From positions 1 through 34,183 of the IMG/VR virus record IMGVR_UViG_3300036820_000057: 34,183 bases of DNA, one strand, 5' to 3'. The stretch's first letter is position 1, and each line of letters opens with the position of its first letter. Origin of the DNA: a virus. The translations under genes and the position numbers were made by a program. The notes beneath the pieces are model-generated. The model saw only the letters and a program-made list of their open reading frames with translations. It had not been told where the DNA came from and did no database searches. Positions 9,996 through 24,434 of the stretch are shown one piece after another.

Positions 9996-10303
9996 TGCCC
10001 ACCCCCGAGAACGCGCTGGACGGGGCCGCCGGGCAGGAACGCCGTGGCGATCTCAGCGAAGATGTAGATCGCCACCAGAATGGTGGCCACCATGACGGCG
10101 TTATGCGCCATGCGGCCGGACAGTTCAAGACACGCGCCGATGCGCCGCGCGTGGCTGTCGCTCGGCGACCAGCGCATCAGCCGCTGCCAGCAAAGGCGCG
10201 GGAACACGAAGATGCGCCGCCCTGTTGGCCACCTGCCGGTGAGAAGGTAATAGTCAATCTCGACGCCCAGACGCTCTTTACCTCGGACGATAAAAATCTT
10301 CAT
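9992..10303 (-). CDS. Small membrane protein of unknown function
   Basis: 103 residues. The N-terminal half is basic and aromatic (MKIFIVRGKERLGVEIDYYL, then RRIFVFPRLCWQRLMRW). The C-terminal half has one transmembrane helix (AVMVATILVAIYIFAEIATA). It directly follows the MuB-like gene with an ATGA overlap. Not recognised. Confidence 0.5.
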   Translation of the reverse strand: MKIFIVRGKERLGVEIDYYLLTGRWPTGRRIFVFPRLCWQRLMRWSPSDSHARRIGACLELSGRMAHNAVMVATILVAIYIFAEIATAFLPGGPVQRVLGGGQ

Positions 10304-11274
10304 GCGACGCGCTCCTTTCTCTCATCCACGGCCGCACATGCATCCATCGCCGGATCGGCGGCCCGCGGCATCTGCTTTTGCGTTTCGCGAATGTAGGCCA
10401 TGAGCCGGCCGATGGAGAGATACCGCTGCGTGCCGTCGTCGCTGCGGATGTCGACGTGCGCGGCCTCGATGATGGAATGCGCCTTGGCGGGGTCCAGGCC
10501 GGGCAGCTCGGAACGGATAATGCCGGCCGCCTCTTCGGGCGTGACGGCAGGGAGAGCGATTTTGGCAACGACGCGCCGCTCTAACTGCTCGAGATCGCCG
10601 GTCCACTTATCGAAGACCCTGCGCAACTGGTGCGACCCGGCGAAACAGATGCTCCAGCCCAGCTCGTCATACAGCTCGCGTACCGTCTCAAAACATTCGA
10701 CGGAAAGATGCTGCGCCTCGTCGAGGTAGAGCGCCGCGCGGCGGCCGGCGTAGTCATAGCGCAGATTGCTGATGGTGCGTTCAATGCCAAGGTCGGCGAT
10801 GGAGCCGCAGGCAATGGCGATGCGGCGCATGAGGTCGCGGCGGGTGATGGCGGCGCGGCAGTAGATTCTGAAAATCTCCACGCCTTTGCCGGCGTATTCA
10901 GGAAGCAGAGCGCGAGCCACATCGGTCTTGCCGCTGCCCGGAGGCGCATAGGCCATCACAATGCACCTGCCGTCGCACATCCGGTCAAGGATTCTGCGCA
11001 TCGCGCGCGTGTTGCCTATCTCATAAAGCGTGCCGGTGAATTGATCCAGGCCGGCGTCGTGGCTCGTGCCAAGGAAGCGCAGGATGGCTTCGCAGATGGC
11101 GGTCTCTTTCGATTCCGCTCCGCGCCGATATTTGCCGAGCAGGAACTGACTGAAGGTTGAGTAGTGGTAGCCGATGCGGCGCGCGAAATCGGCGGGCGCC
11201 ATGCCGCTGCGGCGCAGGTAACTTCGCGCGTGATGACGCACTTCGGTGGCGTTGATTGAGATCGAGTCGGACAT
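10300..11274 (-). CDS. MuB-like transposition AAA ATPase with N-terminal helix-turn-helix
   Basis: 324 residues, close to Mu B (312). Residues 10-50 are a Cro-like helix-turn-helix (MAPADFARRIGYHYSTFSQF). The ATPase core has Walker A at 110-117 (APPGSGKT) and Walker B around 180-187 (ALYLDEAQ), followed by LDEAQHLSVECFETVRELYD. The FAGSHQLRR stretch near 215 fits sensor 1, with ERRVVAKIALP beyond. MuB-type proteins bind target DNA, recruit the transposase and give target immunity. The gene starts directly after the transposase stop (TGAATG), with GGAG inside the transposase end. Confidence 0.9.
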   Translation of the reverse strand: MSDSISINATEVRHHARSYLRRSGMAPADFARRIGYHYSTFSQFLLGKYRRGAESKETAICEAILRFLGTSHDAGLDQFTGTLYEIGNTRAMRRILDRMCDGRCIVMAYAPPGSGKTDVARALLPEYAGKGVEIFRIYCRAAITRRDLMRRIAIACGSIADLGIERTISNLRYDYAGRRAALYLDEAQHLSVECFETVRELYDELGWSICFAGSHQLRRVFDKWTGDLEQLERRVVAKIALPAVTPEEAAGIIRSELPGLDPAKAHSIIEAAHVDIRSDDGTQRYLSIGRLMAYIRETQKQMPRAADPAMDACAAVDERKERVA

Positions 11275-13113
11275 TCATTCTCCTAAAAGTTTTTCAACGA
11301 ACTCCGCGGGCGTCTGTGGCGCCGCGATAGGTTTAGTGGGGCGCAGCCGGGGCTTGCGCTGCGTGACGATGCCGGCGACATCGCCGGGAAGTTCGAGTCG
11401 CGAAGCCATGGCCTCAAGCGGAGACAGCGCGCCGTTCGATCTGGCGACGCGGCTGATCGTGGTGAGAGTTTCGCGCGTAGCTTTTTCGAGGCCGCGCCGC
11501 GTCCTGAAGCTCTCCGCGACCTGCTGCTGCGTGCGCTGGTTGCCGGGCGCGAAGTGCGCCAGATCCTCCACGCGCAGCCACGCCAGAAAGCAGCCGTCCG
11601 TGTCGAGGGCCGCGGCGCACTCCCAGTCGTTGGGATCGTAGGCCACCACAATTTCGCGCTCGTTGCGTTCATGGATGGTCATCCAGCCGGCCTGATCGAC
11701 GGGCTGGTACCGGCGCTTGTTGAGCGTGATCGCGCATTCGCGGACCTGCCGGGTCTGGCGTTCGGCCAGCAACAGCGCCAGCGCGGCCGGATCGGGTGCG
11801 GGCTTTTGCTCGGGGTTGCGATTGCCGTTGAAAACCTGCAGCGGCGATCCGCCCTCCATGCCTTCGCCGGTGTGCGGCGTGTCGTTGTACTCCTCGATCC
11901 ACGCAAGGCACGCGACGATGAAACGGCTGGCCAGCGGGTGGCGGCTTTCGGCGACGCGGCCGGCGCGCAGCAGGCGCCGGTGATCCATCATGGCGACGGA
12001 AGTTGCATCGGGCCGCGTGAAGGGATTGCCGCTGGTGTAGGTGGGCCAGCACTTGTCAAAGCGCTCGTGTAGCGAGCGGAAGAAGCGCTCGACGTGCTTG
12101 GATTGCGGATGGCGCGGAAGGCAGTGCGTGACGGCGATGCCCAGCCGCGCCAGAAACCCGGTGTGGCCGATATCTTCAAGCTCGGCCTTCCACCATCCTT
12201 GTGGCGCCAGCGCCGACTCCCGCAGGTAGCCGGGCATCGCGCCGCGCGCGATCTTCTTGTAGTCCTTGCCGTTGTCGACGTAGATGTGTTCCGGCGGCCC
12301 GTGGCGGAAGATGCCGCGGCGCATGGTTGCGGCGATGGCGCGCGAGCTGCCTTCCCACGCCCAGCTCGCGCCGGCCACCAGACGGGAGCGGTAGTCAAGC
12401 ATCGCGGAAAGCCGGATGCGGATCGGCGCGCCCCACTCGACATCTTCGAAAATGTCATTACAGCACTCGACATCGTGAATCATGTGGTCGCCCACCCAAA
12501 CCTGATTCGCCCACACGTCGGTGTAGGCGCGGCGCAGGTATGCGGCCATGCGTTCGCGATAAGCCTTGCGGCCCTGGCGCGCGTAGACGGTGAGCGCCGC
12601 CGGCATCTGCTTCAGCCAGGCGCGCACGGTTTCGTAGCTGGGCGCTTCTTCCTCTGGAATTTCCAGGAGCAGCAGATCGCGCACGATGGCTTCGTAAGCC
12701 ACGCGCACGCTGGTGCGCTCGTCGAGAAAGAGATACGCGGCCAGCCATGCTGCCTTTGGGTAGGCGGCGAAGAAGCGGCTGGTGTTTTTATCGCGGCGCT
12801 GCCGGTCGGCGAGGGCCGGCAGGCCGCCTTCACGGAAGGCACTGAGCCAGTTAAATAATGTGCCTTCGCTGAAGCCCGAAGTTTCCGATGTGAATTTGAC
12901 GAGACGCGTGAGACTTGTAACGGGCGTTCCGTCTTTGAGGCGCAGCGCGCGGTAGCGCGTCGCGCCGGAGGTGTAATCCAGAAGCGGAGCGATGATCTGC
13001 ATACGCGTCTCGGCCTGCGCTTCGGCTTCGGGATCGGTGAGCGCCACGCGCTGCGGTCGCGCCAGCGAGGCGGGAGCAAAGGGCAGAAGGGAGAGCTGGG
13101 GCTGCGCGCTCAT
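11275..13113 (-). CDS. Mu-type DDE transposase
   Basis: 612 residues, near Mu A (663). The N-terminal part (residues 60-175) has helix-turn-helix units (SEGTLFNWLSAFREGGLPAL, YETVRAWLKQMPAA). The RNase H-like core has D209 (VWVGDHMIHDV), D280 (IYVDNGKDY) and E342 (KHVERFFRSL), with RHPQSKH before the Glu, as in integrase-type DDE enzymes. A Mu-type beta-barrel region (VAYDPNDWECAAALD) and a helical, basic C-terminus likely contacting the ATPase follow. It catalyses end cleavage and strand transfer in replicative transposition. It overlaps the preceding gene by ATGA. Confidence 0.95.
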   Translation of the reverse strand: MSAQPQLSLLPFAPASLARPQRVALTDPEAEAQAETRMQIIAPLLDYTSGATRYRALRLKDGTPVTSLTRLVKFTSETSGFSEGTLFNWLSAFREGGLPALADRQRRDKNTSRFFAAYPKAAWLAAYLFLDERTSVRVAYEAIVRDLLLLEIPEEEAPSYETVRAWLKQMPAALTVYARQGRKAYRERMAAYLRRAYTDVWANQVWVGDHMIHDVECCNDIFEDVEWGAPIRIRLSAMLDYRSRLVAGASWAWEGSSRAIAATMRRGIFRHGPPEHIYVDNGKDYKKIARGAMPGYLRESALAPQGWWKAELEDIGHTGFLARLGIAVTHCLPRHPQSKHVERFFRSLHERFDKCWPTYTSGNPFTRPDATSVAMMDHRRLLRAGRVAESRHPLASRFIVACLAWIEEYNDTPHTGEGMEGGSPLQVFNGNRNPEQKPAPDPAALALLLAERQTRQVRECAITLNKRRYQPVDQAGWMTIHERNEREIVVAYDPNDWECAAALDTDGCFLAWLRVEDLAHFAPGNQRTQQQVAESFRTRRGLEKATRETLTTISRVARSNGALSPLEAMASRLELPGDVAGIVTQRKPRLRPTKPIAAPQTPAEFVEKLLGE

Positions 13114-13613
13114 AACTCCATCCCCGCCAGCCGCTTTTCCAGCAGCTCGGCCTCTTCGTTCGCGCGCTTGCGGCGCAGATATTGCCTGCCCAGCTCAAGT
13201 AATTCAGCTTCGGATTCTGTGATAAGCCTGAATCCGGAAAGCTCAACACGGCGCCGCAGGAGATCCCAGGAGCCGGTTACGGTGCAGAAGGCGCGGTCCA
13301 GTTCGGCGGGCCAGCGGTAGTCTTCGCGCGATTTCGCTGTAAAAGCGTTGAGCCGTCTTACTGTTACTTCGGTGCCGGTCAAAGCCGACATCTCATCGGC
13401 AATGATTTCGCGGCTCTTGCCGCATTTGCGGATGCCCTCGATGAGCGCCGCGCGCACCAGCGATGCGTCGTTCATCGAGCCTTGAAGCGCTTGGCTCCGG
13501 TTGTCGAAGAGGCTGGGGGAGGAATCCACGGAAAAAGTTTGTGGAGAAATTACAGTGGACGCAGCACGCAAAAGGGAGCGAACCTGAGGCAGTGATGAAC
13601 TTCCCCTCGTCAT
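13110..13613 (-). CDS. Conserved phage protein upstream of the transposase
   Basis: 167 residues from ATG 13613, which overlaps the previous stop (ATGA). An alternative ATG at 13475 (codon 47) has AAGG at good spacing and begins the part that looks conserved: NDASLVRAALIEGIRKCGKS, REIIADEMSALTGTEVTVRR, LNAFTAKS, RWPAELDRAFCTVTGS. This pattern occurs next to transposase genes of Mu-like phages, with no function known to me. The first 46 residues are Ser-rich and may not be translated. The C-terminus is a charged helix. Confidence 0.65.
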   Translation of the reverse strand: MTRGSSSLPQVRSLLRAASTVISPQTFSVDSSPSLFDNRSQALQGSMNDASLVRAALIEGIRKCGKSREIIADEMSALTGTEVTVRRLNAFTAKSREDYRWPAELDRAFCTVTGSWDLLRRRVELSGFRLITESEAELLELGRQYLRRKRANEEAELLEKRLAGMEL

Positions 13614-14068
13614 GCCGCACGCTCGGGCGTCTTGCTCCGAATACGCTGAATCTCGCGGTTGATCGCCGCCTCGACGCGCCTCGATCGATGAATTCCTTTC
13701 GCGACCTGCCGGACATGCTGAGGCGTGACTCGCAGCTTTCTGGCGAGCCTGCTATACATGCCATAAAAAAGCGCGGCCTGTTCCAGTTCGGGCGCCGTAG
13801 ATTTAACAAGGAAATCAGAGGACAAAGGATCAGCGCCGCGATCGGCCGTATCCAGCACACGTTCGCTCGCCTCGGCGAAGCGCGGGTCGATGTACGAATC
13901 CTTCACCGGCGCGGGCGCAGGGGTTTGCGCTGGTTCGGCGCAGTCCATGAGGGACGTAATTGCTTCGGCGAAGCGCGGGTCGATCTCAAACGGCGGCAAC
14001 GGGCCGCAGAACAGCACACGCGCGGAGCAACGAAGGAGGTGCCATGCCTGGCTTAGCCGTCTTTTCAT
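13610..14068 (-). CDS. Helix-turn-helix protein, paralogue of the first early gene product
   Basis: 152 residues. The C-terminal about 45 residues (SRLARKLRVTPQHVRQVAKG, then HRSRRVEAAINREIQRI, ending ERAA) align by eye with the preceding 69-residue protein. The N-terminal part holds IDPRFAEA twice, 31 residues apart, encoded by two identical 20-base copies at 13872-13891 and 13965-13984. A phage regulator role near the early promoter is likely. The N-terminal half is Pro/Ala-rich and probably disordered. Confidence 0.6.
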   Translation of the reverse strand: MKRRLSQAWHLLRCSARVLFCGPLPPFEIDPRFAEAITSLMDCAEPAQTPAPAPVKDSYIDPRFAEASERVLDTADRGADPLSSDFLVKSTAPELEQAALFYGMYSRLARKLRVTPQHVRQVAKGIHRSRRVEAAINREIQRIRSKTPERAA

Positions 14069-14274
14069 GCCGCACGCTCACGGCTCTTCCGCTCGAAGCG
14101 GTCAACCTCGCGTTCGATCCGGGCGTATTCAACCGCCAAGGCCCTCTCTACGCGGGCAGATTTGCGGAACCCGTTCGCCACGAGCGAGACGTGGCCGCGC
14201 GTCAGGCCAAGGCGCCTGGCAACGCGGCTCTGGAGGTCGCGCGTAAGTTTCGTCCTGAAAGTGTCGCTATTCAT
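14065..14274 (-). CDS. Small Cro/Ner-like helix-turn-helix protein, first early gene
   Basis: 69 residues. The motif SRVARRLGLTRGHVSLVANG is a compact helix-turn-helix, followed by a basic helix (RVERALAVEYARIEREVDRF). It is the first gene after the leftward early promoter, the place of ner in Mu or cro in lambdoid phages. A role in turning down early and repressor promoters is therefore inferred. AGGA lies only about 3 bases from the ATG, so initiation may be modest. Confidence 0.7.
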   Translation of the reverse strand: MNSDTFRTKLTRDLQSRVARRLGLTRGHVSLVANGFRKSARVERALAVEYARIEREVDRFERKSRERAA

Positions 14275-14358
14275 TTATCCTGTGAGGCAATCAGTGATTC
14301 GGTTGATTATCGTATCGACGATAACGCCGATACGATACGTTGTCAACATAAAAATCAT
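14275..14358. promoter_or_regulatory. Divergent switch region with repressor operators
   Basis: 84 bases between the divergent early operon and repressor gene. TTATCGTATCGACGATAA (14307-14324) is an inverted repeat with 7-base arms. TATCGTATCG (14308-14317) and CGATACGATA (14328-14337) form a second, 10-base inverted repeat with a 10-base spacer, so half-sites repeat every 10-20 bases along one helix face. This fits co-operative binding by the HTH repressor and the Ner-like protein. The region is AT-richer than its surroundings. No clear repressor promoter could be placed. Confidence 0.75.
14318..14346 (-). promoter_or_regulatory. Leftward early promoter (TTGACA - 17 - TATCGT)
   Basis: On the minus strand, TTGACA (14346-14341) is separated by 17 bases from TATCGT (14323-14318). 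This is a perfect -35 and a 4/6 -10 at ideal spacing. Operator half-sites cover the spacer and the -10, so bound repressor would block RNA polymerase. Transcription would start near 14311, about 36 bases before the first early ATG. Confidence 0.7.
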
Positions 14359-14901
14359 ATGGCCGCAGAAGAAAAAGAACCGCCGCTTTGGCCGCTGCGT
14401 CTTCGCGCACTGAAAGCGAAGCTCGGTTATACGCGGCAGAGCGATTTCGCCGCCGCCCTGGATACGAGGCAAGGCGTGGTCTCTACATGGCTTAGCGGCG
14501 AAAGCCGCCCGGTCCCCGAGGCATTTATCCGTATAGCTAAGTTGGCTTCAGGAGAGGATCGGGTTTTTTTTCTGAAAGAGGCGGGGATCCCCATGGATGC
14601 CTCCCTCGGCTACGGCCTTGGTGTTGTCCGCATAGATAAAGATCGTGCTAAACTTCTCCCAACCACCCAGCTAAAAAAACAGAAGGACGGCCGAAGCAGT
14701 CGCCCTGCACCGGAATCATTTTTCGACCCAGATCTACTCATGTCGATCCTTGAGAGCATCAACACGGGGCTCAGGAAAAGGGGAGAGCCTCCACCGCCAG
14801 CGCATGCGCGCACGGTCCTGAATATTTACAGGATTTGCCTGCGGAACAACATACGCGATCGTGAGTCTATCGCGGAAATTTGTTCGGGGATGACGGCTTG
14901 A
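14359..14901 (+). CDS. Phage repressor-like XRE helix-turn-helix protein
   Basis: 180 residues from ATG 14359. The reading frame stays open upstream through the operators, but this is the first ATG after the promoter region. No Shine-Dalgarno is visible, so the mRNA may be leaderless or poorly translated. Residues 14-60 form an XRE-type helix-turn-helix (LGYTRQSDFAAALDTRQGVV, then STWLSGESRP). The C-terminal part has no LexA/CI-like Ser-Lys protease motifs. Thus SOS-type self-cleavage is unlikely. Divergence from the early operon supports the role of lysogeny repressor. Confidence 0.75.
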   Translation: MAAEEKEPPLWPLRLRALKAKLGYTRQSDFAAALDTRQGVVSTWLSGESRPVPEAFIRIAKLASGEDRVFFLKEAGIPMDASLGYGLGVVRIDKDRAKLLPTTQLKKQKDGRSSRPAPESFFDPDLLMSILESINTGLRKRGEPPPPAHARTVLNIYRICLRNNIRDRESIAEICSGMTA

Positions 14902-14938
14902 AGGCTCATCGGCACGTTGTTGCCTTGGGAGCCTAAGA

Positions 14939-15217
14939 GTGACGAAGTGGGACAGAATTGAAATCGAAGAAGAGATCGGAGCTATGATGGACTCGATTCA
15001 AGCACCGGGAAGAAACGATCGAGGTTTTTCTATAAGCATCCACGCGCCGTGCAGCATTCAGGTTCACCATGGAGATTGCACTGGCGATCACGTTGACGTG
15101 CATATCCACGCAGGCGGCCCTGAGAGTCTGGAGCTTTCAGCAGCTTCAATCGCGGAGCTTGTCGAGGGTGCTATCGCGGGCACTCGACATGGCACGTCCG
15201 ATCCGGAAGGTAAGTGA
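14939..15217 (+). CDS. Unknown small protein in the lysogeny region
   Basis: 92 residues from GTG 14939 with GGGAG 7 bases upstream. The N-terminus is acidic (RIEIEEEIGAMMDSIQAPG). The middle is rich in His and Cys (ISIHAPCSIQVHHGDCTGDH, then VDVHIHAGG), which suggests metal binding. The C-terminal helix ends in a polar tail. It lies one base before the lipoprotein start, so the pair is probably co-expressed from the prophage. Not recognised. Confidence 0.55.
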   Translation: MTKWDRIEIEEEIGAMMDSIQAPGRNDRGFSISIHAPCSIQVHHGDCTGDHVDVHIHAGGPESLELSAASIAELVEGAIAGTRHGTSDPEGK

Positions 15218-15218
15218 C

Positions 15219-15836
15219 ATGAAGAGCGCTCTGTTGGGATTGATCTTTCTTTTACCGCTTTTCGCGTGTCAAAAAAGCCAGCAATCGCAGGCCGCAAGTC
15301 AGTCATCGCGATTGAAGCAAATGCTTAGCGAGACAGACGTTCTTCTCGTGAAGCATTTTTATGGAGAAAGTGATACGTTTGAGGACCGGGACTCGAAGTA
15401 CCCGGAGCTTAATCCGGGCATGTTGGGTATCGAACCGATTTGGGTCTACGAGCCTCAGAAGCAAGCGCAGGGCCTCAAGGGCGCGATTCTCAGAGTGCGG
15501 CAGTCTTACTTTTTCGATTCCGACGCCAGAATGCAGGGAGGAGAAAAAGCGGAGATAGCCCTCGATTTTGATGAGTTGCGGGATTTGAATAACTCCCTCC
15601 TCGCCCTACAAGCGAAAGATGCCGATTGGCGGACTGCACCTACGGGCGAACATATAGAAATGCAGTTTTCCTCGAAAGATGGATTCAGCTTGTCGGCATT
15701 TCATAGCCCAGAAACGCACGACGATGTGCTCTACTTCAAGATCGACGGACGGTCGGTTGGGATAAATGCGGGCAAGGTCCAGGACCTCATCAATGAGACA
15801 AATTCCGCGATTCAATTATTGAAAGCCAAGGGGTAG
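15219..15836 (+). CDS. Predicted lipoprotein, probable lysogenic-conversion gene
   Basis: 205 residues from ATG 15219. The signal MKSALLGLIFLLPLFAC with lipobox LFAC at residues 14-17 marks it for lipidation and the cell envelope. The mature part is acidic and globular-looking (WVYEPQKQAQGLKGAILRVR, then VLYFKIDGRSVGINAG). Its codon use is visibly less GC-biased than the structural genes, hinting at separate origin. Between repressor and lysis genes, such envelope proteins often alter phage receptors or exclude related phages. No family was recognised, so that role is inference. Confidence 0.7.
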   Translation: MKSALLGLIFLLPLFACQKSQQSQAASQSSRLKQMLSETDVLLVKHFYGESDTFEDRDSKYPELNPGMLGIEPIWVYEPQKQAQGLKGAILRVRQSYFFDSDARMQGGEKAEIALDFDELRDLNNSLLALQAKDADWRTAPTGEHIEMQFSSKDGFSLSAFHSPETHDDVLYFKIDGRSVGINAGKVQDLINETNSAIQLLKAKG

Positions 15837-16033
15837 AAAACTCTCCCTCCCGCTCCCTCCTCGCCACATAACGCCGCTTTTCCGCTGAGCGCATCTCTGT
15901 GCTCGCGCCCTGCCTACGCTGTGATCTGGAAGTCCGCGACACCAATCCTCATGAAAGGACAGTCGCGGAGCGCCAGAGCTGGAAGCGCGGCGAGCGGGGC
16001 TTTCTGCCCTCTCCCCGCGCGTTCCATAGGCAG
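15837..16033. other. Intergenic region before the lysis genes
   Basis: 197 bases with no convincing gene. It contains GCGGGG and CCCCGC arms near 15995-16017 with a 13-base loop, and pyrimidine-rich CTCCCTCC runs at the start. A promoter for the late arm would be expected here or further right, but no sigma-70 type pair is clear. It could depend on a phage activator. Confidence 0.4.
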
Positions 16034-16558
16034 ATGGGCGGCAGCGCGGTGAATCAATTTCAATCCGACTTCATGAAGATGGCGGTGCCGGCGGCGATTG
16101 CGTCCGAGGCCGCGACGGGAGTGCCTGCGTCGATAACCATCGCGCAGGCCATTCTCGAATCGGGTTGGGGGCAAAGCGGGCTGGCGAAGCAGGCCAACAA
16201 TTTCTTCGGCATCAAGGCGGCGGCGCACGTTGCCCCGGACAGCTACATCCAGTTGCCCACCGAAGAAATTGTGATGGGCCGCGCTGTGGCCGAGAACGCG
16301 GAATTCATGAAATACAAGAGCGCGGCCGACAGCTTTACGGCTCACGGCTTGTTGCTCGCGCAGGCGTCGCGCTACGCGCCGGCCATGGCGGTGCGCGGCA
16401 ATCCCGCGCAGTTCGCCGCGGAGCTGCAGCGCGGCGGCTACTCGACCAATCCCAACTACGCGGACGATCTGATGTGTATCGTAGCGGAGCTCGATCTGAC
16501 GCAATACGACACGCAGGCAAACACGCAGCCGGCCGCGCCGGCGGAGGTGAAGGCATGA
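16034..16558 (+). CDS. Endolysin: GH73-type glucosaminidase
   Basis: 174 residues from ATG 16034; an in-frame GTG at 16049 is an alternative. The single domain starts at once: FQSDFMKMAVPAAIASEAAT, then ITIAQAILESGWGQSG, where E42 of ILESGWG is the expected catalytic Glu, then NNFFGIKA. A distal stretch SFTAHGLLLAQASRYAPAM and GGYSTNPNYADDLMCIV complete the FlgJ/LytG-like fold. It hydrolyses the glycan chains of peptidoglycan to release progeny. It has no signal peptide, so export needs a holin. The stop overlaps the next start (ATGA). Confidence 0.85.
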   Translation: MGGSAVNQFQSDFMKMAVPAAIASEAATGVPASITIAQAILESGWGQSGLAKQANNFFGIKAAAHVAPDSYIQLPTEEIVMGRAVAENAEFMKYKSAADSFTAHGLLLAQASRYAPAMAVRGNPAQFAAELQRGGYSTNPNYADDLMCIVAELDLTQYDTQANTQPAAPAEVKA

Positions 16559-17217
16559 CGGAAGCGATCTTCTATCTGAAGACCCTGAAGAAATTGAACG
16601 CCCGCGCGCTGGGCGCTGTCGCGCTATGCGCAATCCTGTTTTGCGGCACGCTGCCCGTGGCGGGCTGCAGCGGCGTGAGCGTGGCGCAGGACATTGTGAA
16701 CTGGACGCCCACGCTGCAATCGGCCGTGGCCAGTGTCGACGCAACCGCTTCGGTGCTGGATCCGGCCGGCGCGCCGATCTTCACGGGCGCCACGGCCGGC
16801 TTCGATGCTGCCAGCACTATTCTCGCGGCCCAGGCGAAGGCATATCTGGCCAACCCGAATGCGAACGCTCTGACTCAGCTTCAGACGGCCGTCGCAACCT
16901 TTCAGCAGCAGGTGAACGCCGCGCTGCTCGCGGCGGCAGGGATCGCCGACCCGGCCAGCCAGCAGAAGGCTCTCGCCGACATCGGCGCCGTGGGCACCAT
17001 CGTAAGCACAATCCTCGCGCTGGTGGCTTCGATTTCGACTAAGGCACAGGTAACAGCCATGGCCACGGCGTCGACGGTGAAGCTAAGCCAGGTTGACCGG
17101 TACATGGATCGATCGCGGGCCGCGCGAATTCTCGCGTCCCACTATGGCGATTCGACGGGCCGGGAGCAGGCGCGAGTACTTGTGGCACGCGCGGATCTGG
17201 GTCGCGCGGGATTTTAA
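16555..17217 (+). CDS. Membrane/lipoprotein of the lysis region
   Basis: 220 residues from ATG 16555, overlapping the endolysin stop. A basic start and hydrophobic helix (LGAVALCAILFCGTLPVAGC) with a lipobox-like VAGC suggest a lipoprotein signal. The mature part is Ala/Gln-rich and helical (LQTAVATFQQQVNAALLAAA), with a hydrophobic stretch (IGAVGTIVSTILALVASIST). The C-terminus is basic (DRSRAARILASHYG). It could be a spanin or holin-associated component; no family was recognised. Confidence 0.6.
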   Translation: MTEAIFYLKTLKKLNARALGAVALCAILFCGTLPVAGCSGVSVAQDIVNWTPTLQSAVASVDATASVLDPAGAPIFTGATAGFDAASTILAAQAKAYLANPNANALTQLQTAVATFQQQVNAALLAAAGIADPASQQKALADIGAVGTIVSTILALVASISTKAQVTAMATASTVKLSQVDRYMDRSRAARILASHYGDSTGREQARVLVARADLGRAGF

Positions 17218-23597: not shown

Positions 23598-24434
23598 ATG
23601 GCGCTAAGCTTTCACATGATGCCGACGCGCGACACGGAAGTGCAGCAGCGCGTCGGCGACATGCTGGCGCGGCACCTGGCCGCGGCGAACCTGCTCGGCC
23701 GGGTGCAGATCGTGAAGCGGGCGCACAGGCTGAGCGGCCATAAGCTGCCCATCGCCGCCAGCTCGCGCCACGTCGGCTTCGGCGACGACGACGACGATCT
23801 TTATGGCAGCTTCGCAACCGATCTGCCCAACGACGACGCGGCCGGTTACCTTGCCGATCTCACGCCCGTCACGAAGGAGATCTTCGACGGGCTCAGCTCG
23901 CAATACAAGAAAGACGCGTTCACGCTGGCCGGCGCGGCCGACGTGCGGTTGATCGGCAAGATCCGCGACGCGCTGGCCGACGCCGCGCAAAAGGGCGAGA
24001 CCGCGGATGAGTTCGAGCTGGCGGCGAAGAAGATCACCGACGACGCCGGCGTGGCGGAGCTGAGCAGCTTCACGCTCGATGTCGCATTTAACACCGCGAT
24101 GCAGAAGGCGTTTTCCCTTGGCCGATGGGAGCAAATCCAGGATCCGGCGACGAAATTAGTACTTCCTTTTCTGCAGTACTGGACGGTGGGCGACGATCAT
24201 GTACGTCCGGAACACGCGGTGCTTGATGGTTTTGTCGCGCGCGTGGATGATCCGGTCTGGTTGAAGATTTATCCACCCAACGGATTCGGCTGCCGCTGCT
24301 CTGGCGTTCCTGTGCCGGAGGCGGAAGCGCTGAAGGCCGACAAGGACGCGAACGAGCCAGGCTACGCGCGGCTGCCGCTGTTGGCGCGGCTGCTGGTGCC
24401 GCAGCCGGGATTTGCCAAAGTGTTTTCGGAGTAA
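23598..24434 (+). CDS. Head morphogenesis protein (Mu gpF-like)
   Basis: 278 residues. The conserved C-terminal block is clear: LDVAFNTAMQKAFSLGRWEQ, then YWTVGDDHVRPEHAVLDGFV, then DPVWLKIYPPNGFGCRCSG. The RPEH...LDG...PPNGFGCRC signature defines the phage Mu F family of minor head proteins. These are a few copies inside or at the portal vertex and often fused to toxins in other phages, but no extra domain is seen here. One base after the portal stop. Confidence 0.88.
   Translation: MALSFHMMPTRDTEVQQRVGDMLARHLAAANLLGRVQIVKRAHRLSGHKLPIAASSRHVGFGDDDDDLYGSFATDLPNDDAAGYLADLTPVTKEIFDGLSSQYKKDAFTLAGAADVRLIGKIRDALADAAQKGETADEFELAAKKITDDAGVAELSSFTLDVAFNTAMQKAFSLGRWEQIQDPATKLVLPFLQYWTVGDDHVRPEHAVLDGFVARVDDPVWLKIYPPNGFGCRCSGVPVPEAEALKADKDANEPGYARLPLLARLLVPQPGFAKVFSE

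Follow-up and report, generated by a model that had tools for sequence, protein, structure and literature searches.

A Mu-like phage of soil bacteria, represented by a viral record of 34,183 bases (the whole of which was analysed and is hereafter referred to as the window), appears to carry two neighbouring modules of a lysogeny operon directly downstream of its repressor gene: a 92-aa gene whose product would act as a partner of the repressor, and an envelope lipoprotein gene carried as cargo, for which superinfection exclusion is the likeliest use. The chances that this combined reading is correct are judged to be about even. Cargo in a repressor operon and lipoproteins encoded by phages are kinds already known; the protein families found here have not been described before, and what is most original is the repressor cassette. 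Among the literature matches listed, none dealt with this repressor-endolysin slot or with Mu-like phages of Acidobacteriota. A preliminary description of the same DNA had correctly placed both open reading frames, separated by one base, between the repressor and the lysis genes, and had regarded them as a pair acting in lysogenic conversion.

The transposition genes MuB (10300-11274) and MuA (11275-13113), both on the - strand, were identified by matches to annotated phage transposases and by their position. Beyond a divergent control region the + strand carries, in order, the repressor gene, the 92-aa gene, the lipoprotein gene, the endolysin gene and the late genes. A search with MuA yielded 17 related viral contigs, and an alignment of MuA retrieved 30 genome contigs, five of them close (42-70% MuA identity); all five are MAGs of Acidobacteriaceae/Acidobacteriales, and one of these matches lies within a 290-kb contig. 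Two further loci (L020 and L066) were added through the lipoprotein and four (L063, L067, L068 and L069) through the 92-aa protein. The comparison set, the window included, thus comprised 29 loci, which amount to 24 distinct phages once near-identical loci are merged (L006/L013, L008/L012/L017, L015/L018 and L067/L068).

The divergent early/repressor control region contains an inverted repeat (14308-14320/14325-14337; 13-nt arms, 92% complementary, 4 nt apart, not assigned to a strand), which is a candidate operator and is overlapped, within 14308-14337, by a sigma-70-like site on the - strand (TTGACA-17-TATCGT, 14346-14318). Beside this candidate lie two adjacent small - strand genes (14065-14274 and 13610-14068) of weakly YdaS-like HTH type that resemble paralogues, the number of such genes being variable among the other phages of the group. 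The repressor gene (14359-14901, + strand) encodes an HTH protein with a DPxLL C-terminal domain, as recognised with Pfam (HTH_3, E 9e-4, below the Pfam cut-off), PHROG (transcriptional repressor, E 1e-4) and a DPxLL profile built from five of the compared sequences, the window repressor being one of the sources. The DPxLL domain reads to us as helical. The Pfam search gave no match to PF00717 (S24) in the window repressor, which is therefore not assigned to the S24 (LexA-type) repressors; the repressor of L020 carries PF00717 (E 2e-18). Among the 24 distinct phages, ten have a DPxLL repressor and ten an S24 repressor, and neither domain was found in the remaining four.

The 92-aa gene (14939-15217, + strand; labelled HisP) has a GTG start preceded by a purine-rich stretch and no internal stops, and it begins 37 bp after the repressor stop codon. 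A profile search detected it in eight loci, corresponding to seven distinct phages out of 24, i.e. the window and six others, and in all seven it begins 30-37 bp past the stop codon of a DPxLL repressor. It is present in seven of the ten phages with a DPxLL repressor, as against none of the ten with an S24 repressor (Fisher p 0.0015); with the window and the MuA-fetched phages alone (15 with a typed repressor), thus omitting phages fetched through the 92-aa or the lipoprotein gene, the figures are 4/7 and 0/8 (p 0.026), and both p-values serve as guides because the compared phages are related and the Fisher tests overstate their independence. An order-level scan found the gene in a single genome of 397, in two copies that both lie within such phages.

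The traces left in the related phages L067 and L068 suggest how this linkage arose. Just downstream of their 92-aa gene lies the in-frame 18-codon end of an S24 repressor gene (67% identity to L020, E 2e-4), which runs into 25 bp identical to the end of the L020 repressor gene, the next gene being different; a shorter S24 piece also appears, as read by eye, to be retained in L069. The L067 repressor itself has a 176-residue stretch with 55% identity to the S24 repressor of L020. In the simplest history consistent with these sequences, the DPxLL domain together with the 92-aa gene replaced the S24 domain of the repressor in some members of the group, and the 92-aa gene seems to belong to an immunity cassette by which that domain was replaced. 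Since the replacement would have involved the unit as a whole, the 92-aa protein probably works with the repressor, either helping it to assemble or permitting it to be switched off; the linkage, the spacing and the S24 remnant are observed, and the role is inferred from them. It may further be proposed, though tentatively, that the DPxLL domain and the 92-aa gene jointly take over from the self-cleaving S24 domain as a module of two parts, in which a repressor without RecA-sensing autocleavage would be held or released by a small partner, so that a swappable induction module would be followed by a swappable surface-protein cargo.

The preliminary description had termed the 92-aa protein His/Cys-rich, which applies only to the copy in the window (7 His and 2 Cys), the six homologues having 2-4 His and 0-3 Cys. 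Metal binding through His and Cys was considered and rejected, no His or Cys being invariant across five aligned homologues. Structure prediction with AlphaFold gave no usable model of this protein (pLDDT 43).

The lipoprotein gene (15219-15836, + strand) starts with ATG one base after the 92-aa gene, is preceded by a purine-rich stretch and encodes 205 aa, consisting of a predicted signal peptide (aa 1-16), Cys17 and a mature acidic alpha/beta domain. Its 618-bp reading frame has no internal stops, and none of 2000 base shuffles remained open. The lipobox LFAC, already pointed out from the sequence of the window, is borne out by the homologues: Cys17 is aligned in all seven lipoprotein-type members and thus in seven of the eight members of the family, the distant eighth (L074) being exported without the lipobox Cys. 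Besides Cys17, the KHF, YxP, LDxxE, W and KDxF positions are conserved in seven copies that are 26-50% identical to that of the window. The mature forms of the seven lipoproteins are acidic (computed pI 4.9-5.6, with lengths and pI slightly off for L020, L057 and L066, which were cut at a wrong Cys at position 7; the alignments show the right one). The less GC-biased codon usage claimed for the two genes was confirmed, with GC3 values of 0.516 for the 92-aa gene and 0.597 for the lipoprotein gene (overall GC 0.503). The dip is not confined to them: the repressor, at 0.575, likewise lies below the remaining 21 of the 24 window genes for which GC3 was computed (0.655 to 0.858).

A search for homologues in other phages, as had been suggested, located the lipoprotein between the repressor and the lysis genes of L014 (50% identity), L020 (34-36%) and L066 (34-35%), so that it occurs, with or without the 92-aa gene, in four of the 24 distinct phages. 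Chromosomal homologues with non-phage neighbours were found in three genomes; as read from the translations of neighbouring genes, the copy in G001 lies in an apparent exopolysaccharide cluster, that in G346 near a GidA-like gene, and that in G321 next to a gene that opens with a CxxC motif. The genome surveys, whose draws overlap, gave lipoprotein matches in four of 397 genomes at the order level, one of 399 at the class level and one of 297 at the phylum level (2/297 with a broader profile, L074 included). One match (G060, E 2e-4) was dropped as it is antisense to a 427-aa gene, which leaves three genomes for the order and removes the only match for the class. Direct searches with either protein gave no matches in viral contigs and no real ones in phage records, where five weak lipoprotein matches (E 2-6) represent chance, and nothing in Pfam, PHROGs, NCBIfam or PADLOC matched either protein significantly. 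A pattern scan of the genome contigs with a two-row lipoprotein alignment returned nothing; such empty scans are weak evidence, because chromosomal homologues exist despite this result. A hint of a CAT acetyltransferase (Pfam E 0.71, NCBIfam E 0.24) was regarded as chance, and for Bor, considered as a possible relative, no model appeared among the matches of the Pfam scan.

The repressor-endolysin region is where the related phages, viral contigs and MAGs alike, differ in their gene content, and the comparison supports its interpretation as a variable cargo slot of this phage group. The slot contents (listed for all loci except L005 and L016) include the lipoprotein in the window, L014, L020 and L066; another exported family in L002 and L006; other exported proteins in L003, L004, L022 and L025; small proteins combining a CxxC-like N-terminus with a single hydrophobic stretch in L003, L007, L009, L010, L015, L021, L063, L066, L067 and L069, together with relatives without the Cys part in L023 and L024; a Dam methylase in L004, L007, L020, L024, L025 and L063 (PF02086, E 1e-19 in L020); and a Mu F-like protein of 202 aa in L008 (7190-7798) and L011 (7231-7839). 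By the hydropathy limit used to recognise a signal or membrane helix, 17 of the 22 first cargo genes passed, three more fell just short and the Mu F-like first genes of L008 and L011 were counted as failures without scoring; in the control, 7 of 26 other window genes passed, the endolysin with its misframed start being left out. In 16 of 18 phages the slot has a lower GC content than either MuA or the late genes. The lipoprotein gene is a moron; the slot in the repressor operon where it lies is occupied differently from phage to phage. The claim of a site of lysogenic conversion therefore stands in part: the variable slot, the patchy occurrence of the lipoprotein and its chromosomal homologues agree with it, and the casting of the 92-aa gene as a conversion partner does not hold.

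Some of the occupants deserve separate mention. The small proteins of the form CKxCGxxxG...H..C with one hydrophobic stretch are the commonest cargo (L009:8036-8272, L066:6566-6790, L067:6413-6655 and others); no Pfam match was obtained for the one in L009, and the chromosomal protein beside the lipoprotein homologue in G321 (L057:10014-10886) opens with the same motif. The Dam-type adenine methylase is reduced to a fragment in L067. The 202-aa protein of L008 and L011 resembles the C-terminal portion of Mu F (PF04233, E 7e-5, short of the cut-off) and is possibly a free-standing MuF-type effector; a relative is encoded in the window at 23598-24434, among the head genes.

A recognisable joint is associated with the exchangeable genes. 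With up to one mismatch allowed, the 10-bp motif GGAAAGTGAG was counted 15 times in the 20 slots, in 13 of the 20 phages; its frequency in the parts of these loci beyond the slot predicts 0.7. The slot ends of L025 and L063, where no lysis gene was seen, were set by hand. With one exception (the second match in L009), each match immediately precedes a start codon. The motif accompanies different cargo, namely the lipoprotein (L020, L014), the CxxC protein (L067) and the Mu F-like protein (L008, L011). Its counterpart in the window (15205-15217, + strand) coincides with the end of the 92-aa gene (Gly-Lys-stop) and also provides the ribosome-binding stretch for the lipoprotein gene; it is diverged, and fails the count because it has two mismatches. 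The joint acts as a ribosome-binding stretch, and it probably also provides short homology for the exchange of cargo. No downstream joint common to all slots was found, several phages sharing stretches there.

The slot is closed by the stretch 15837-16048 (+ strand), which is probably non-coding and precedes the lysis genes. The first of these encodes a glucosaminidase endolysin (PF01832, E 1.4e-34; longest reading frame 15899-16558, + strand), for which comparison with homologues suggests an in-frame GTG at 16049 as the true start. Blocks of the intervening stretch (e.g. GCCAGAG) are common to five phages with different cargo, the counterparts being L002:8453-8673, L014:7158-7387, L066:6791-7013 and L009:7751-8035. 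Its folding as RNA is more favourable than that of 199 among 200 shuffles (z -3.2), the consensus structure before the endolysin is weak (covariation term -0.44), and Rfam gave no match in the window; the stretch could be a late promoter, a terminator or a structured RNA. A widely kept gene after the endolysin (16555-17217) encodes a protein with a lipobox-like AGC motif, for which Pfam and PHROG gave no match and which is a candidate lysis lipoprotein or spanin.

An AlphaFold model of the lipoprotein built from three sequences (pLDDT 71.5, pTM 0.70) contains eight strands of at least three residues and four helices. In VIA-align its best match was human PURA (Z 11.8, 131 residues, 3.3 A), followed by Whirly WHY2 (Z 9.2) and MRP1/2 (Z 8), with Z of 6.4 or less for all rows beyond PUR, Whirly and MRP; the mature lipoprotein is accordingly predicted to resemble the PUR/Whirly domains in fold. 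Foldseek gave a weak match in the PDB (2.8e-3) and matches to uncharacterised viral proteins (best E 2e-4). No PUR or Whirly profile was matched in Pfam, and no PUR/Whirly chain appeared among the PDB sequences at E values up to 10; the lipoprotein profile matched a 75-residue stretch of cytochrome bc1 core protein 2 (E 0.005).

Taken as a lysogeny module, the lipoprotein gene would be read from the repressor transcript in the lysogen. This is probable because the spacings are 37 bp and 1 bp and a consensus scan of 14060-16060 found no promoter-like site on the + strand, and expression in lysogens is likely since the gene lies in the apparent transcription unit of the repressor. After export and lipidation at Cys17, the product would remain in the cell envelope; there its alpha/beta domain may bind something and thereby alter the lysogen surface or block an incoming phage. 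The lipoprotein is thus most likely an envelope protein of lysogenic conversion. Its position, its targeting to the envelope and the prevalence of exported proteins among the alternative cargoes point to superinfection exclusion as the likeliest single role, a change in host surface physiology being nearly as likely.

The latter possibility, a conversion gene that alters envelope physiology (stress, adhesion or polysaccharide) rather than phage entry, is the strongest competitor, although on balance somewhat unlikely: it draws on the bacterial chromosomal homologues, one of which lies in an apparent exopolysaccharide/glycosyltransferase cluster (L059), and on several other cargo families that are likewise exported without a known phage role, but the exopolysaccharide neighbourhood is seen in just one of three chromosomal copies. 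That the lipoprotein gene is instead a passenger from the host, with no selected role in the phage, would fit its rare and patchy occurrence (4/24 distinct phages and 3/397 order genomes, the antisense match excluded); this is rather improbable, as every copy is open and the motif positions are kept across seven copies with only 26-50% identity to that of the window.

The remaining explanations carry little weight. Adjacency on the same strand, 1 bp apart, and the same order with a short spacing (7 bp) in L014 would agree with a single two-gene defence or toxin-immunity unit requiring the joint action of both proteins, in line with the functional pair first proposed; the two genes, however, are apart in seven of the nine distinct phages having either (L020 and L066 have only the lipoprotein, and L009, L022, L063, L067 and L069 only the 92-aa gene), the 92-aa gene follows the repressor type, and no PADLOC defence model matches either protein, so that such a unit is very unlikely. 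As little credit is due to an accessory role in lysis, akin to an outer-membrane spanin, which the lipoprotein signal and the adjoining endolysin gene might suggest: most relatives that retain an endolysin or lysozyme lack the gene, the distance to the endolysin is about 210 bases and includes conserved elements, the lysis module already has the widely kept lipobox-like protein, and the chromosomal homologues lie away from lysis genes. Equally slight is the prospect that the protein, at the surface or in the periplasm, uses its PUR/Whirly-like fold to bind nucleic acid and traps entering phage DNA. The Z scores for PURA and WHY2, well separated from those of other folds, are in its favour, but the Foldseek E value, the moderate pLDDT of a model from three sequences and the lack of a PUR sequence match speak against it, and likeness in fold shows no function; the acidity of the mature proteins disfavours nucleic-acid binding altogether.

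The comparison defines a cargo slot, marked by a recognisable joint, in transposable phages of the Acidobacteriota, an environmental phylum, and envelope and defence genes can be sought there. Should the proposal for the repressor cassette be true, the natural swaps between the S24 and the two-protein form make the switching-off of non-cleavable phage repressors directly testable.

In comparison with the LexA-type (S24) repressors, the N-terminal part is shared between sister phages (L067 versus L020), whereas the window repressor has no S24 domain and is followed by the 92-aa gene. Known members of the PUR/Whirly domains bind nucleic acids inside cells; the window protein, alike in its predicted fold, is an acidic exported lipoprotein. 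BstA and Rex act within the cell, whereas the gene described here encodes a lipoprotein in a Mu-like phage of Acidobacteriota, and no sequence relation to them was found. The lipoprotein Ltp of the Streptococcus phage TP-J34 has a helical repeat fold, which is not that of the lipoprotein model with its eight strands and four helices; the two also differ in length (142 aa against 205 aa) and in the kind of cell envelope. The placement is nevertheless similar: as described, the accessory gene of cI-bstA in BTP1, transcribed with the repressor, and rexAB in lambda directly follow the repressor gene at a mosaic site, as the lipoprotein gene does, for which co-transcription in the lysogen is likewise expected (PMC7067206). 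According to its report, Ltp is a superinfection-exclusion lipoprotein whose gene, in the lysogeny module beside the repressor genes, is scattered over phages and bacterial genomes, much as the window lipoprotein, which directly follows the repressor unit (PMC3952083). The accessory reading frames of the Pseudomonas Mu-like phages, mostly of 34-100 codons, have no sequence relation that was found to the window genes. These phages are reported to carry variable genes at fixed sites (regions of genomic plasticity), as here, and in the Mu-like phage Fc02 the gene e4, directly downstream of repc, is transcribed in the lysogen (PMC9936078, PMC4378225).
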